Shown piece by piece: positions 48,464-61,820 of a DNA stretch of 64,000 nt. The position numbers and the translations under genes were made by a program. Positions within the stretch are counted from its first letter, which is position 1; each line of letters starts with the position of its first letter. The stretch covers positions 186,001 through 250,000 of the forward strand of contig NZ_PJNW01000011.1 of assembly GCF_002844595.1 (NCBI RefSeq), in the 5' to 3' direction. Origin of the DNA: Pleomorphomonas diazotrophica (GTDB lineage Bacteria > Pseudomonadota > Alphaproteobacteria > Rhizobiales > Pleomorphomonadaceae). The notes beneath the pieces are model-generated. The model was given only the letters and a program-made list of their open reading frames with translations. It made no database searches and was not told the DNA's origin.

Positions 48464-49183
48464 TTACGCGGTTTCCGCCCGCTCATCGCTGCCGGAGTAA
48501 GCGTTCCAGAGCGCCTTTTCGCCAATGGCAGCGATGAAGGCAGCGTGCGCGTCTGCCTCGGCCGGCGAAAGGCGGGACGGCAAAGGCACGGGACGCGGAC
48601 GCAGGGCGACGCGGCCGCCCGTTTCGCTCGCCGATGCCGCCTGTACGGCTACCGTGAGATCGAGGCCGGCCTGACGGCCGCCGGTCAGCTCCAGATAAAC
48701 CTCGGCAAGCAGTTCGGCGTCGAGCAAGGCGCCATGCTTGATACGCTTCGAGCGGTCGATACCATAGCGATTGCAGAGCGCATCGAGGCTGGCAGGCGCG
48801 CCGGGGTGCTTGCGGCGGGCCATCATCAGCGTGTCGATGACGCGTTCTGCGCCAAAGACTGAACGCCCTGACGCCTTCAGCTCGAAATTGATGAAGCCCA
48901 TGTCGAAGCTGGCATTGTGGGCAACCAGTTGGGCCTCGCCGACAAAGGCGATGAAATCGTCGGCAACTTGTTCAAAGCGCGGCTTGTCGGCCAGAAACTC
49001 GTCGGACAGGCCGTGGACGTCGAAGGCTTCCTTGGGTACCGATCGTCCAGGGTTGATATAGACATGAAAGTTGCGGCCGGTCGGAAAACGATTGACCACC
49101 TCGACACAGCCGATTTCGACCAGACGGTCGCCGGTCTTGGGATCGAGGCCAGTGGTTTCGGTATCGAAGACGATTTCGCGCAT
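48464..49183 (-). CDS. dnaQ: DNA polymerase III epsilon subunit (3'-5' exonuclease)
   Basis: A 239-residue DEDDh proofreading exonuclease. ExoI is FDTETTGLDP (Asp6, Glu8), ExoII is LVAHNASFDMGFI (Asp near 96) and ExoIII has KIKHGALLDAELLA-like HGALLDAELLAEVYLELTGGRQ (His and Asp). The C-terminal 60 residues contain the alpha-subunit-binding tail. The gene lies in the origin-proximal minus-strand run dnaQ, coaE, aroE, maf-like, regulator. Confidence 0.94.
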   Translation of the reverse strand: MREIVFDTETTGLDPKTGDRLVEIGCVEVVNRFPTGRNFHVYINPGRSVPKEAFDVHGLSDEFLADKPRFEQVADDFIAFVGEAQLVAHNASFDMGFINFELKASGRSVFGAERVIDTLMMARRKHPGAPASLDALCNRYGIDRSKRIKHGALLDAELLAEVYLELTGGRQAGLDLTVAVQAASASETGGRVALRPRPVPLPSRLSPAEADAHAAFIAAIGEKALWNAYSGSDERAETA

Positions 49184-51236: not shown

Positions 51237-52094
51237 TCACCCGGCGTCGGAGAAGGGGTCGAGCACCTTGCCATAGCGGTGCTGGTCCCAAAGGGCGAGG
51301 ATGGCGGCGGCGGTTTCCTCGATCGACCGACGCGTGACGTCGATCATCGGCCAGCCATGTTCGGTGCAAAGGCGCTTGGAATAGAGGATTTCCTGGGCGA
51401 TCGACGCCTTGTCGACATAGGCCGAGTCCTGGTTCTGGTCGGCGAGCGCCAGCAGGCGATTCTGCCGGACGTGCATGATGCGCTCGGCCGTGGCGATCAG
51501 GCAGACCACCAGGGGCCGCCGCGCGGCGACCACCTTGTCGGCGATGGGGATGCCGGGTACCAGCGGCACGTTGGCGGTGCGGATGCCGCGGTTGGCGAGA
51601 TAGATCGACGTCGGTGTCTTCGACGTGCGGCTGATGCCGATCAGGATGACGTCGGTTTCCTCGATATCGTCGGGCAGGGCGCCATCGTCATGGGCCAGGG
51701 TGAAGTTCAGCGCGTCGATGCGCTTGAAATAGTCGGCGTCCATGGCGTGCTGGGCGCCAGCCTTGCCGATCGCCTGCACATTGAAGAAGGAGCGGAACAC
51801 GTCGAACACCGGCCGGAGCACGTCGATGCAGGGAATGGCCGCCGCCTGGCAGGCTTCCTCGAGCCGAACGGCGAGATCCTGTTGCACCAGCGTGTAAAGG
51901 ACGATGCCGGGCGCCGCTTCGATGTCGGCGATGACGCGCTCGATATGCCGCACCGAGCGCACCAGCGGATAGATATGCTCGATCGCCACCATCGATTCAT
52001 ATTGGGCGGTGGCCGCCCGGCCGACGGCGAGCAGCGTCTCGCCGGTGGAGTCGGACACGAGGTGGATATGGAAATAGGTCTGGCCCCGCTTCAT
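51237..52094 (-). CDS. pyruvate,phosphate dikinase / PEP synthase regulatory protein (DUF299)
   Basis: A 285-residue bifunctional Ser/Thr kinase and phosphorylase that switches PEP synthase or pyruvate phosphate dikinase on and off with nucleotide state. It opens FHIHLVSDSTGETLLAVGRAATAQY and carries the P-loop-like VILIGISRTSKTPTSIYLANRGIRTANVPLVPG (about 148-180). PpsR and PpdR cannot be separated without knowing the partner enzyme. It is the first gene transcribed leftward from the putative origin, a place held in Caulobacter by the gene on the far side of Cori. Confidence 0.9.
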   Translation of the reverse strand: MKRGQTYFHIHLVSDSTGETLLAVGRAATAQYESMVAIEHIYPLVRSVRHIERVIADIEAAPGIVLYTLVQQDLAVRLEEACQAAAIPCIDVLRPVFDVFRSFFNVQAIGKAGAQHAMDADYFKRIDALNFTLAHDDGALPDDIEETDVILIGISRTSKTPTSIYLANRGIRTANVPLVPGIPIADKVVAARRPLVVCLIATAERIMHVRQNRLLALADQNQDSAYVDKASIAQEILYSKRLCTEHGWPMIDVTRRSIEETAAAILALWDQHRYGKVLDPFSDAG

Positions 52095-52366
52095 GGCCGC
52101 ATGCTCCGAGAGACGGCGGGCAGCATCTCAGATGAGGCCATGCTTGGCGAGTTCTTTTTTGCCGCTTGCGATCAAGGACTTGGATGCTTTCGCCGGACCG
52201 CTGTCCACAGCCTGCCACCGACCTCGTGGACGGACGTGAACAAGCGAGACCAAGACGGTGCCTCCGACCGGGCCCTGTGGGCAACCCGCCAAACCGTCAA
52301 CAGGCTGATGAAAATCGTCTCTCTTCGGCGGTGCCTGTGGGCGCTGTGCAAAAGCGATGCTGGTGC

Positions 52367-52381
52367 TTAACGGTTCATTAA
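52367..52381. promoter_or_regulatory. CtrA box 1, TTAA-N7-TTAA
   Basis: TTAACGGTTCATTAA is an exact match to the CtrA consensus, with 7-base spacing. It lies in the origin region, 20 bases before a second exact box. In Caulobacter CtrA binding to such boxes blocks initiation. Confidence 0.72.
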
Positions 52382-52401
52382 CTCTTCGACGGCCGTCCCC
52401 A

Positions 52402-52416
52402 TTAACCATTCGTTAA
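52402..52416. promoter_or_regulatory. CtrA box 2, TTAA-N7-TTAA
   Basis: TTAACCATTCGTTAA, an exact consensus match. The neighbouring CATTCGTTAAA at 52435-52444 repeats its right half (CATTCGTTAA), so the segment may be a degenerate tandem of sites. Confidence 0.72.
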
Positions 52417-52445
52417 GACTTGCGGCATTCCGCCATTCGTTAAAG

Positions 52446-52454
52446 TTTTCCACA
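52446..52454 (+). promoter_or_regulatory. DnaA-box-like TTTTCCACA
   Basis: Matches the general DnaA pattern TTNTNCACA. It is 30 bases from CtrA box 2 and next to a TTAAAG half-site. Other, weaker matches are noted under the origin. Confidence 0.55.
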
Positions 52455-52595
52455 AAAGCCACAGGCTCCAGGCCGCCATGCTGCCGGCAAGACCCGCCGA
52501 TGCGCCCTGATACGGTTCGGATTGTGGAGAGGCGACAATCCCTGCTATCCCTCGCCAATAAGAAAAAGAAAATCTCTTCAAATAGGATTCTTGAC

Positions 52596-53657
52596 TTGGA
52601 AACGGCCGACGGCGCGACGACAGACGGGACGGCAAATGGCCGTCGCCTCATCAGGGTTCTCGACGGCGAGCGGTTATGGCCGCCACCGGTCTGGATGATG
52701 CGGCAAGCCGGCCGCTATCTCCCGGAGTATCGCGCCACACGCGCCAAGGCGGGTTCCTTCCTGGATCTCTGCTATGCGCCTGCGCTTGCCACGGAAGTGA
52801 CGCTACAGCCGATCCGCCGCTTCGGCTTCGATGCGGCCATTCTGTTTTCCGACATTCTGGTGGTACCTCATGCGCTGGGCCAAAAGGTCTGGTTCGTGGA
52901 AGGCGAAGGGCCACGGCTCGAACCGGTCGATCTCTCACGCCTCAGCCTTGAACCCGATCGCCTGTTGGCGCGGCTCGAGCCGGTCATCGAGACGGTGTCG
53001 CGCATCCGCGCCGAGCTTCCCGAGGAGACGACGCTGCTCGGCTTCTGCGGGGCACCCTGGACGCTGATCACCTACATGATCGCTGGTCACGGCACGGCGG
53101 ACCAGTTGCCGGCACGACGGGCGGCTCTGATCGACCCTGAGGGTATGGATCGGCTGGTCGACGTCCTTGTGAACGCGTCCATTGACTACCTGACGGCGCA
53201 GCTTCGAGCCGGCGCCGACGCCGTACAGATTTTCGACACCTGGGCAGGGGTACTCGACGACGCCGGTTTCCAGCGGCTGGTTATCGAGCCAACCAAACGG
53301 ATCGTTGCAGGCCTACGTGAACGGGTACCTGATGCACGGGTGATCGGTTTTCCGAAGGGAGCGGGCGGTCACCTGCCGGCCTATGTACAGGAGACGGGCG
53401 TCGATGCGGTTGGCATCGACTGGCAGGCGTCGCTCGATTTCGCGCGGGATGCGGTGCAACCGCTCGCCGCGGTGCAAGGCAACCTCGACCCGCTGCATCT
53501 CGTCACGGGTGGAGAGGCGCTGGATGCGGCGGTCGATCGCGTTCTCAACCGGCTTGGCGGGGGACGGTTGATCTTCAACCTCGGCCACGGCATCACGCCG
53601 GACGGATTGATCGACAATGTCGCGCGCATGCTGGCACGCGTTCGCGGGAGGCTGTGA
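52596..53657 (+). CDS. hemE: uroporphyrinogen decarboxylase
   Basis: A 353-residue heme enzyme converting uroporphyrinogen III to coproporphyrinogen III. Family landmarks are [20 protein letters not shown] (about 36-55), [18 protein letters not shown] (catalytic Asp), [18 protein letters not shown] and IFDTWAGVL, then a GNLDPLHL segment near the C-terminus. I favour the TTG at 52596, eight bases after AGGA. An ATG at 52500 would add 32 residues and lie within the origin, but has no RBS. It overlaps hemJ by the TGATG junction. Confidence 0.93.
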
Positions 53658-55633: not shown

Positions 55634-55649
55634 TGTTTCACGTGAATCA
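55634..55649. promoter_or_regulatory. parS-like site, one mismatch
   Basis: TGTTTCACGTGAATCA differs from the 16-bp parS consensus TGTTTCACGTGAAACA at one base. It lies just after rho, 1.5 kb from the perfect site at 57181 and about 3 kb from the putative origin. Confidence 0.75.
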
Positions 55650-57092: not shown

Positions 57093-57432
57093 CCGATTCC
57101 TATCCGAAACGATTCCCAAGGCGACGCATGCGCCTACGCCGCTGGCGCCACTGTGCAAGCTCAGTGGTGAAAAATTAACGGTGTTTCACGTGAAACACTC
57201 CACAGGCTGTGGAAAAGTCTTTGGATTCGCCACCGAACCGAATTGGGAAATCCGGCTTCGGGACGTAGATCTGACCCGAGAATCCCAGAAAACGGCGCTT
57301 TCGGCTTTGACCTCGGCACTCGAAATGCCTTATTAAGGCCCACCTGATCCCGACCGACACGACCTGAACGCTGCGGAGAGTTGGGATACCAAGGCCGACG
57401 CCAGTGTCGAGCCACTTCAAGAAAACTCGGGA
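57093..57432 (+). other. mnmE-mnmG gap carrying parS
   Basis: 340 bases without coding evidence. The only clear feature is the perfect parS site at 57181-57198, downstream of AT-rich AAAATTAAC. The rest, including TTATTAAGG near 57331, shows nothing recognisable. Confidence 0.55.
57181..57198. promoter_or_regulatory. parS centromere site
   Basis: GTGTTTCACGTGAAACAC is an 18-bp perfect palindrome containing the universal parS core TGTTTCACGTGAAACA. It lies between mnmE and mnmG, 3.7 kb before parB in the same segment. ParB should load here and spread. Confidence 0.95.
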
Positions 57433-60935: not shown

Positions 60936-61820
60936 ATGAGCAGCGTCAGCGACGAGAGCGGACGTCGGCGGCTCGGCCGGGGACTGGCGGCGCTGATCGG
61001 CGACGCCAGTTCAGAGTTCGAGGTGGTGGAGCGGGTGCGCGGTATCCGCAAGGTGGCGATCGACCTCATCAAGGCCAATCCCAAGAACCCACGCCGGCTG
61101 TTCAAGGAGGAAGACCTTGAGGAACTGGCGGGTTCCATCCGCCAGCACGGCATGATCCAGCCGGTGGTGGTCCGGCCGGCGCCCAATGGCGGCAATGGTT
61201 ACGAGTTGATTGCCGGCGAGCGGCGGTGGCGGGCAGCTCAGAAGGCCGGGCGGCACGAGATCCCGGTCATCATTCAGGACGTGACCGACCGCGAGGCGAT
61301 GGAAATCGCCATCATCGAAAACGTCCAGCGGCAGGATCTCAACCCGCTGGAAGAGGCGATGGGCTATGACCAGCTCATCCAGGAGTTCGAGTATACGCAG
61401 AACGATCTCGCCGCGGTGATCGGCAAGAGCCGTAGCCACGTTGCCAACACGCTGCGTCTTCTCAAGCTGCCAGAGCCGGTGAAACAGTATCTCAACGACG
61501 GCGCGCTGACCGCCGGTCACGCCCGCGCGCTGATCGCCGCGCCCGACCCGGCAGCGCTGGCCAAGCGCATTGTCGAGGAGGGCCTGACGGTGCGTTCGGC
61601 CGAGACGCTGGCCCAGGCGACCATTTCCGAGCCGCATGGCCGGGCGAAAGTGGCGAAGCCGGACAAGGACGCCGATACGCGCGCGCTTGAGAAGCGGCTG
61701 TCCGATGCGCTGGGGCTGTCCGTCCAGATTCGCCACAAGCCCAGTGGAGCCGGTGAAGTGCGGTTGGGCTACGCAAACCTCGATCAGCTCGACGAGATCA
61801 TCCGCCGACTGGAGGCCTGA
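60936..61820 (+). CDS. parB: chromosome partitioning protein ParB
   Basis: A 294-residue CTP-dependent DNA clamp. N-terminal GRGLAALIGD (ParA-stimulating region), then box I NPKNPRRLFKEEDLEELAGSIRQHGMIQPVVVRP (about 52-85) and box II with GYELIAGERRWRAAQKAGRHEIPVII (CTP-binding GERRWRA). The helix-turn-helix for parS is ...QNDLAAVIGKSRSHVANTLRLLKLP (about 152-176), and a C-terminal dimerisation tail follows. It would bind the parS sites at 57181 and 55634. Confidence 0.96.
   Translation: MSSVSDESGRRRLGRGLAALIGDASSEFEVVERVRGIRKVAIDLIKANPKNPRRLFKEEDLEELAGSIRQHGMIQPVVVRPAPNGGNGYELIAGERRWRAAQKAGRHEIPVIIQDVTDREAMEIAIIENVQRQDLNPLEEAMGYDQLIQEFEYTQNDLAAVIGKSRSHVANTLRLLKLPEPVKQYLNDGALTAGHARALIAAPDPAALAKRIVEEGLTVRSAETLAQATISEPHGRAKVAKPDKDADTRALEKRLSDALGLSVQIRHKPSGAGEVRLGYANLDQLDEIIRRLEA

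Follow-up and report, generated by a model that had tools for sequence, protein, structure and literature searches.

Paired CtrA boxes conserved at the predicted hemE-side chromosome origin of Pleomorphomonas point to probable gating of replication by CtrA

Whether CtrA directly blocks chromosome replication outside Caulobacter is an old question, and it is raised again by a short intergenic gap in a Pleomorphomonas-type member of the Rhizobiales. The Caulobacter origin contains a CtrA-regulated hemE promoter, and the origin of Sinorhizobium meliloti likewise adjoins hemE; Brucella belongs to the same order as the genome studied here, and Hyphomonas neptunium lies outside it. Two reports from the Rhizobiales are negative: the S. 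meliloti origin carries no CtrA motifs and is unbound by CtrA (PMC4433202), and Brucella abortus CtrA does not bind the origin (work cited in PMC2877005), so that the preliminary description of this DNA was fair in calling CtrA control in the order unsettled. ChIP-seq placed CtrA binding next to the origin of H. neptunium, a stalked budding species (PMC7200025), and hemE-side origins were predicted in Rickettsia, Wolbachia, and relatives, a far lineage in which most of these origins have CtrA boxes (0 to 7) and some have neighbors other than COG1806 (PMC1914354). The TTAA-N7-TTAA motif itself is described as conserved and functional across the class (PMC9437464). Passages from PMC8116508 and PMC6090056 dealt with matters other than the boxes, and among the open-licence titles listed none concerned CtrA at the origin in Pleomorphomonas or its family, which is a weak negative.

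The window (the whole 64,000-nucleotide stretch analyzed, G000:C3:186001-250000) belongs to a genome of 4,526,482 b in 40 contigs. Its predicted chromosomal origin is a 501-bp gap (52095 to 52595) between divergent genes, recognized by gene order, GC skew, parS, and DnaA-like boxes, with an AT content of 43%, higher than its surroundings. As first described, the gap holds two exact TTAA-N7-TTAA sequences with 20 bases between them, CtrA box 1 (TTAACGGTTCATTAA, 52367 to 52381) and CtrA box 2 (TTAACCATTCGTTAA, 52402 to 52416), located 180 to 230 bp upstream of the likely hemE start. A Cori-type origin was taken to combine a position between hemE and COG1806, a strand-composition switch with parS, a cluster of DnaA boxes with an AT-rich stretch, at least one exact conserved TTAA-N7-TTAA box, and the genes of the CtrA phosphorelay.

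The right-hand gene is hemE, as had been proposed, encoding uroporphyrinogen decarboxylase (52596 to 53657, plus strand; PF01208) with a likely TTG start at 52596. The left-hand gene (51237 to 52094, minus strand) had been called PpsR-type, a label that Pfam does not bear out: it matches Kinase-PPPase (PF03618, COG1806/DUF299), a kinase/pyrophosphorylase family, not the photosynthesis repressor PpsR. A longer hemE reading frame opens at 52500; because congeners carry indels directly upstream of TTG 52596 in the genus alignment, the sequence suggests that the stretch ahead of this codon is not coding, and therefore that the gap bounds of 52095 and 52595 are right. A coding feature inside the gap was rejected, since reading frames there are interrupted by indels in congeners. 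When relatives' contigs were scanned for HemE and the best 80 of 590 relatives were kept, the nearest named match among them was a Pleomorphomonas MAG (86% identity). Sixty genomes, including the window's own, yielded a HemE match in 59; 30 plus 20 were taken as loci, and nine with a weaker match (G022, G023, G026, G028, G036, G040, G048, G051, and G054) were left out. The genus set (n = 14, genus by automatic grouping) consisted of the window's genome and 13 further genomes, with HemE 74 to 89% identical to that of the window.

Strand composition and partitioning sites both mark this part of the chromosome. Along the window's contig (310,000 of 310,367 b covered), the cumulative GC skew reaches its minimum (−1204) 3.9 kb from the boxes, at window position 48,493; a second dip near contig position 120,000 (−1114) comes close to it in depth. 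In G012, a congener assembled as a single contig of 5,476,363 b, the skew minimum of a contiguous 177-kb stretch is at 601,010 and hemE is at 605,119, so that the expected skew flip was found about 4 kb from hemE in both genomes. A genome-wide two-segment fit in G012 placed the switch at samples 557 to 626 kb (R2 of 0.64, 80 samples of 20 kb), and the sampled cumulative minimum fell near 489 kb, about 115 kb from hemE, a coarse estimate good to roughly 2% of the chromosome. The only parS sequences of the window's genome at one mismatch or fewer are a perfect site (TGTTTCACGTGAAACA, 57182 to 57197) and a one-mismatch site (TGTTTCACGTGAATCA, 55634 to 55649, G000:C3:241634), 3 to 5 kb from the gap, and no parS match in the five other family genomes searched lay more than 7 kb from hemE. 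The two parS-type sites flank an mnmE-like gene downstream of hemE. A parB gene (60936 to 61820, plus strand; PF02195/PF17762/PF23552) and a parA-like open reading frame, read by eye, follow 8 to 9 kb from the gap.

DnaA-like motifs, pointed out in the preliminary description, are enriched in the gap, with seven at two or fewer mismatches to TTATNCACA (1.0 expected from the window average) where four had been counted, none of them perfect and two at one mismatch; a second consensus, TTATCCACA, was also searched at one mismatch. The two better motifs stand on either side of the CtrA boxes in the window's genome: TTTTGCACA (52345 to 52353, minus strand), 13 bp left of box 1 and present as TGTGCAAAA in 12 of 14 genus genomes, and TTTTCCACA (52446 to 52454, plus strand), 29 bp right of box 2 within a block conserved in the genus. 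Motif search and genus alignment placed two-mismatch motifs at 52276 to 52284 (TTGCCCACA, minus strand; TTACCCACA in most congeners) and 52201 to 52209 (CTGTCCACA, plus strand), and one of the seven, also a two-mismatch motif, overlaps CtrA box 1. The A-rich stretch noted earlier was located at 52557 to 52572, in a segment (52540 to 52595) that is 61% AT. It belongs to a block highly conserved in the genus alignment (52520 to 52595) that also includes GATTGTGGAG, ATCCCTGCTATC, and one GANTC (52586 to 52590), and that is possibly an unwinding region and/or a hemE leader. This part beside hemE, where GATTGTGGA and ATCCCTGNTATC precede the A-rich stretch and GANTC, ranks with the best conserved in the gap and may be the unwinding core; a similar block is legible by eye in the gaps of sister genera that have no CtrA boxes (L016 to L021). 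The exact IHF consensus is absent from the window's gap, and WATCAANNNNTTR occurs exactly, at a similar position each time, in 3 of the 14 genus genomes. An origin elsewhere was set aside on the evidence of skew, parS, and DnaA-like boxes at the hemE gap, and these features, together with the nearby parB, indicate that the gap between hemE and COG1806 is very probably the chromosome origin.

Could two TTAA-N7-TTAA sites have arisen in such a gap without a function? The gap is AT-richer than its surroundings, which would favor such an accident, yet the two sites are the only exact ones in the window, where dinucleotide shuffles gave an expectation of 0.01 and none of 100 shuffles contained two. 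Across the genome (4.53 Mb) there are 21 exact sites, and the hemE gap holds the sole pair less than 10 kb apart on one contig. Given these shuffles, the spacing control, and the register conserved throughout the genus described below, chance is a very improbable explanation. Per-genome counts of exact boxes and of a reversed control pattern, which were complete, show the motif to be mildly commoner than the control, at 21 versus 14 in the window's genome and 27 versus 20 in G012. A lone TTAA half-site at 52440 to 52443, where the right part of box 2 is repeated (CCATTCGTTAA), is conserved only partly in the genus.

Conservation of the boxes in relatives, which had been put forward as a check, held throughout the genus: both boxes were found at one mismatch or fewer each, and always 35 bp apart, in 14 of 14 genomes, the window's included. 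Both were exact in eight genomes, one was exact and the other mismatched in five, and both had one mismatch in one (G007), leaving at least one exact box in 13 of 14; box 1 was exact in 12 and box 2 in 9, with one mismatch in the other 2 and 5. When the spacing between TTAA halves was varied in the genus, N7 gave 21 sites and N20 gave 11, with zero at all other spacings; 20 bases is what separates the inner halves of box 1 and box 2. The boxes could have been kept merely as part of a conserved origin block, through another factor or DNA shape, with CtrA inactive there. Consistent with such a passive role, the two box windows come within the most conserved 6% and 4% of 486 15-bp windows, and other stretches of the gap are equally conserved. 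Identity to the window, averaged with its own row counted, was nonetheless higher in the half-sites (0.969, 16 columns) than in their own spacers (0.913, 14 columns) or the gap (0.740, 500 columns), and passive retention seems improbable to us. Overlap of a CtrA box with a DnaA box is a feature of Cori. In the two most distant genus members, G006 and G007, another near-box (ATAACCATTTGTTAA or ATAACCATTCATTAA) begins where a DnaA-type box ends, sharing its last base, a layout (TT[AT]TCCACATAACC; L014 and L015) about 190 to 200 bp upstream of HemE that is absent from the window.

The regulator and its partners are present. CtrA in the window's genome scored 425 bits against a cut-off of 350, ChpT was found in 20 of 20 genus and family genomes, and genes for GcrA, SciP, and a RAMA-domain (CcrM-type) protein are present as well in the window's genome, a likeness to Caulobacter. 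The gcrA gene (G000:C3:112574-113101) shares its contig with the origin, at a distance of about 125 kb. Based on Pfam scans of ten proteins near sites, four of the 19 other exact boxes in the genome adjoin genes of a type commonly under CtrA, a type described in part in PMC2877005: a flagellar rod gene, flhA, an ftsE-like ABC ATPase gene (so called by reading, as Pfam gives only ABC_tran), and an L,D-transpeptidase gene, and the other 15 had no clear CtrA-type neighbor by eye, with chemoreceptor-like and primase-like genes among those beside them. The 500 bp ahead of ctrA contained no exact TTAA-N7-TTAA in any of eight family genomes (L255 to L262). All eight keep TTAACCA(T/C) at nearly one distance, 107 to 112 bases upstream of ctrA.

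Comparison with characterized origins shows both agreement and difference. The gap resembles Cori in its flanking genes and in having, among its DnaA boxes, CtrA boxes with the Cori consensus; it differs from Cori, for which five CtrA sites are reported (PMC1914354), in having two, lacking an exact IHF consensus, and belonging to a different order. S. meliloti shares the order and has CtrA, and its origin differs from this gap in being reportedly without CtrA motifs; B. abortus also has CtrA, like the window's genome, and its origin is reportedly unbound. We favor the view, which is likely but well short of certain, that the gap is a Caulobacter-type, CtrA-gated origin, in which occupancy, repression, and timing are inferred. 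Binding of CtrA to the two boxes is the firmer part and is to be expected with good confidence, and repression of initiation by CtrA at the gap is also probable. Under such gating, DnaA would load onto the weak boxes on either side and melt the A-rich stretch beside hemE, and the pair of CtrA boxes, 35 bp apart, would sit between two DnaA-like boxes. Phosphorylated CtrA at the boxes would either exclude DnaA or lock the DNA in a closed shape, and a nonreplicating cell would stay in G1 until CtrA was inactivated or degraded.

In favor of CtrA gating we counted the rarity in shuffles, the 35-bp register in 14 of 14 genomes, the N7 spacing, and the conservation of half-sites over spacers. Against it we counted two boxes rather than five, distances of 13 and 29 bp to the better DnaA-like motifs, no perfect DnaA box, no exact IHF consensus, sister genera without boxes, no exact box upstream of ctrA, a mild genome-wide excess, and few clear CtrA-type neighbors; the second skew dip, the G012 minimum 115 kb off, and the equally conserved other stretches of the gap were also set against it or against the origin assignment. 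A different role for the boxes would leave the gap as the origin and have CtrA control the promoter of hemE or COG1806, with any effect on replication being indirect. The divergent flanking genes, the nature of CtrA as a promoter-binding regulator, the CtrA-regulated hemE promoter within the Caulobacter origin, and the distance of the boxes from the likely hemE start would all suit this role. A promoter scan of the gap found nothing, which says little, as it covers only sigma-70-type sites. The evidence from other families, presented below, makes promoter control unlikely, although less so than passive retention.

Direct CtrA gating, if it operates in Pleomorphomonas, need not extend to the whole family. 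No exact box was present within 1500 bp upstream of the HemE match in six genomes of five sister genera, and the feature is therefore dispensable in the family. All six gaps together contain one TTAA (for G016, whose fetched flank showed no COG1806 gene, the gap was taken as the 800 bp ahead of hemE), and G018 has one near-box by the A-rich stretch. Elsewhere in these genomes, exact boxes number 17 to 33 each versus 4 to 29 for the reversed control. The hemE region is likely also the origin in these genera, judging from parS by hemE in the four genomes searched (G014, G017, G018, and G019) and from G017, where 20 samples showed a skew sign change between those starting at 5.04 and 5.07 Mb and hemE is at 5.0645 Mb. 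CtrA of G014, G016, G017, G018, and G019 differs from that of the window by few residues (G015 ctrA, two broken matches at a contig start, was left out of the alignment). Near-identical CtrA and missing boxes place the difference, in the genomes compared, in the DNA of the origin rather than in CtrA itself; the same combination would also suit boxes that CtrA does not use.

Outside the family, the N7 spacing stands out again. In 78 non-family hemE gaps there were 16 N7 sites in 15 loci, against 0 to 3 for each other spacing from 0 to 20 and a shuffle mean of 0.69 (largest 5 in 300 shuffles); the 78 loci are mutually related, and the 16 sites should therefore not be counted as independent events. 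This preference for N7 in other families speaks against passive retention within a conserved block. The non-family loci number 109 in all, and the spacing test took the 78 in which COG1806 was found next to hemE, leaving out 31 (8 with a box); L032, an apparent duplicate of L006 (both 22,170 b), was dropped from the spacing, conservation, position, and tree analyses, from the survey of box-bearing loci, and from the comparison of boxes with DnaA-type cores. Named loci with COG1806 had 6 sites in 21,107 b of gaps versus 4 in the remaining 423,306 b, a contrast that partly reflects noncoding versus coding DNA. Of the non-family sites within 420 bp of hemE, 17 of 27 were 130 to 260 bp upstream (31% expected; P = 0.0007 versus uniform), which is rather far for control of hemE and argues against a promoter role, but the range was picked after seeing the sites and single TTAA is denser there too, making this weak by itself. 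Also at odds with promoter control, at least one DnaA-type core accompanied the box in 23 of 23 non-family loci, and was present in 71 of 86 such loci without a box (P = 0.04), and boxes were found in 0 of 13 Bradyrhizobium-clade loci, none of which had COG1806 found beside hemE.

Boxes occur in, among others, Cohaesibacter (two species), Aurantimonas, Pelagibacterium, Methylobacterium, and a Beijerinckiaceae MAG, and within Devosia one was present in D. crocina and none in D. equisanguinis. Rhizobiaceae/Phyllobacteriaceae-like loci with COG1806 had a box in 1 of 24 cases, and L065, a Rhizobiaceae MAG without COG1806 beside hemE, also has one. None of 18 loci outside the Rhizobiales had a box; they include one Caulobacteraceae MAG with no COG1806 beside hemE, which says nothing about Cori. 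These groups of 24, 13, and 18 were assigned from record titles and the tree; for some of the 18, the title went no further than Alphaproteobacteria or Proteobacteria. On a HemE tree of 109 of 129 loci (20 with too little hemE being omitted), 30 had a box and at least 14 changes were needed, a patchy trait in which gain and loss are indistinguishable; the tree is a quick one from a single gene, and 34 of its 106 inner branches are open.

The distribution raises the idea, for and against which we see the case as evenly poised, that direct gating of the origin by CtrA can be switched on or off in cis across Rhizobiales: many families would have it, the Rhizobium/Mesorhizobium group of the model species would almost entirely lack it, and sister genera with a near-identical CtrA and an unchanged origin position would differ in it. 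If this is true, the two published negatives would not stand for the whole order, and the pattern warns against extending the Sinorhizobium and Brucella results to all of it. A genus with constrained-looking boxes beside box-less sister genera with almost the same CtrA makes the question testable in close relatives. Other sequences are also enriched in the 78 non-family gaps, and we know of no protein for the 8-mers concerned: CCTGTTGA was present in 19 of 78 loci (0.6 expected), CTGTTGAT in 18 (0.6 expected), and its reverse complement ATCAACAG in 11 (0.5 expected).
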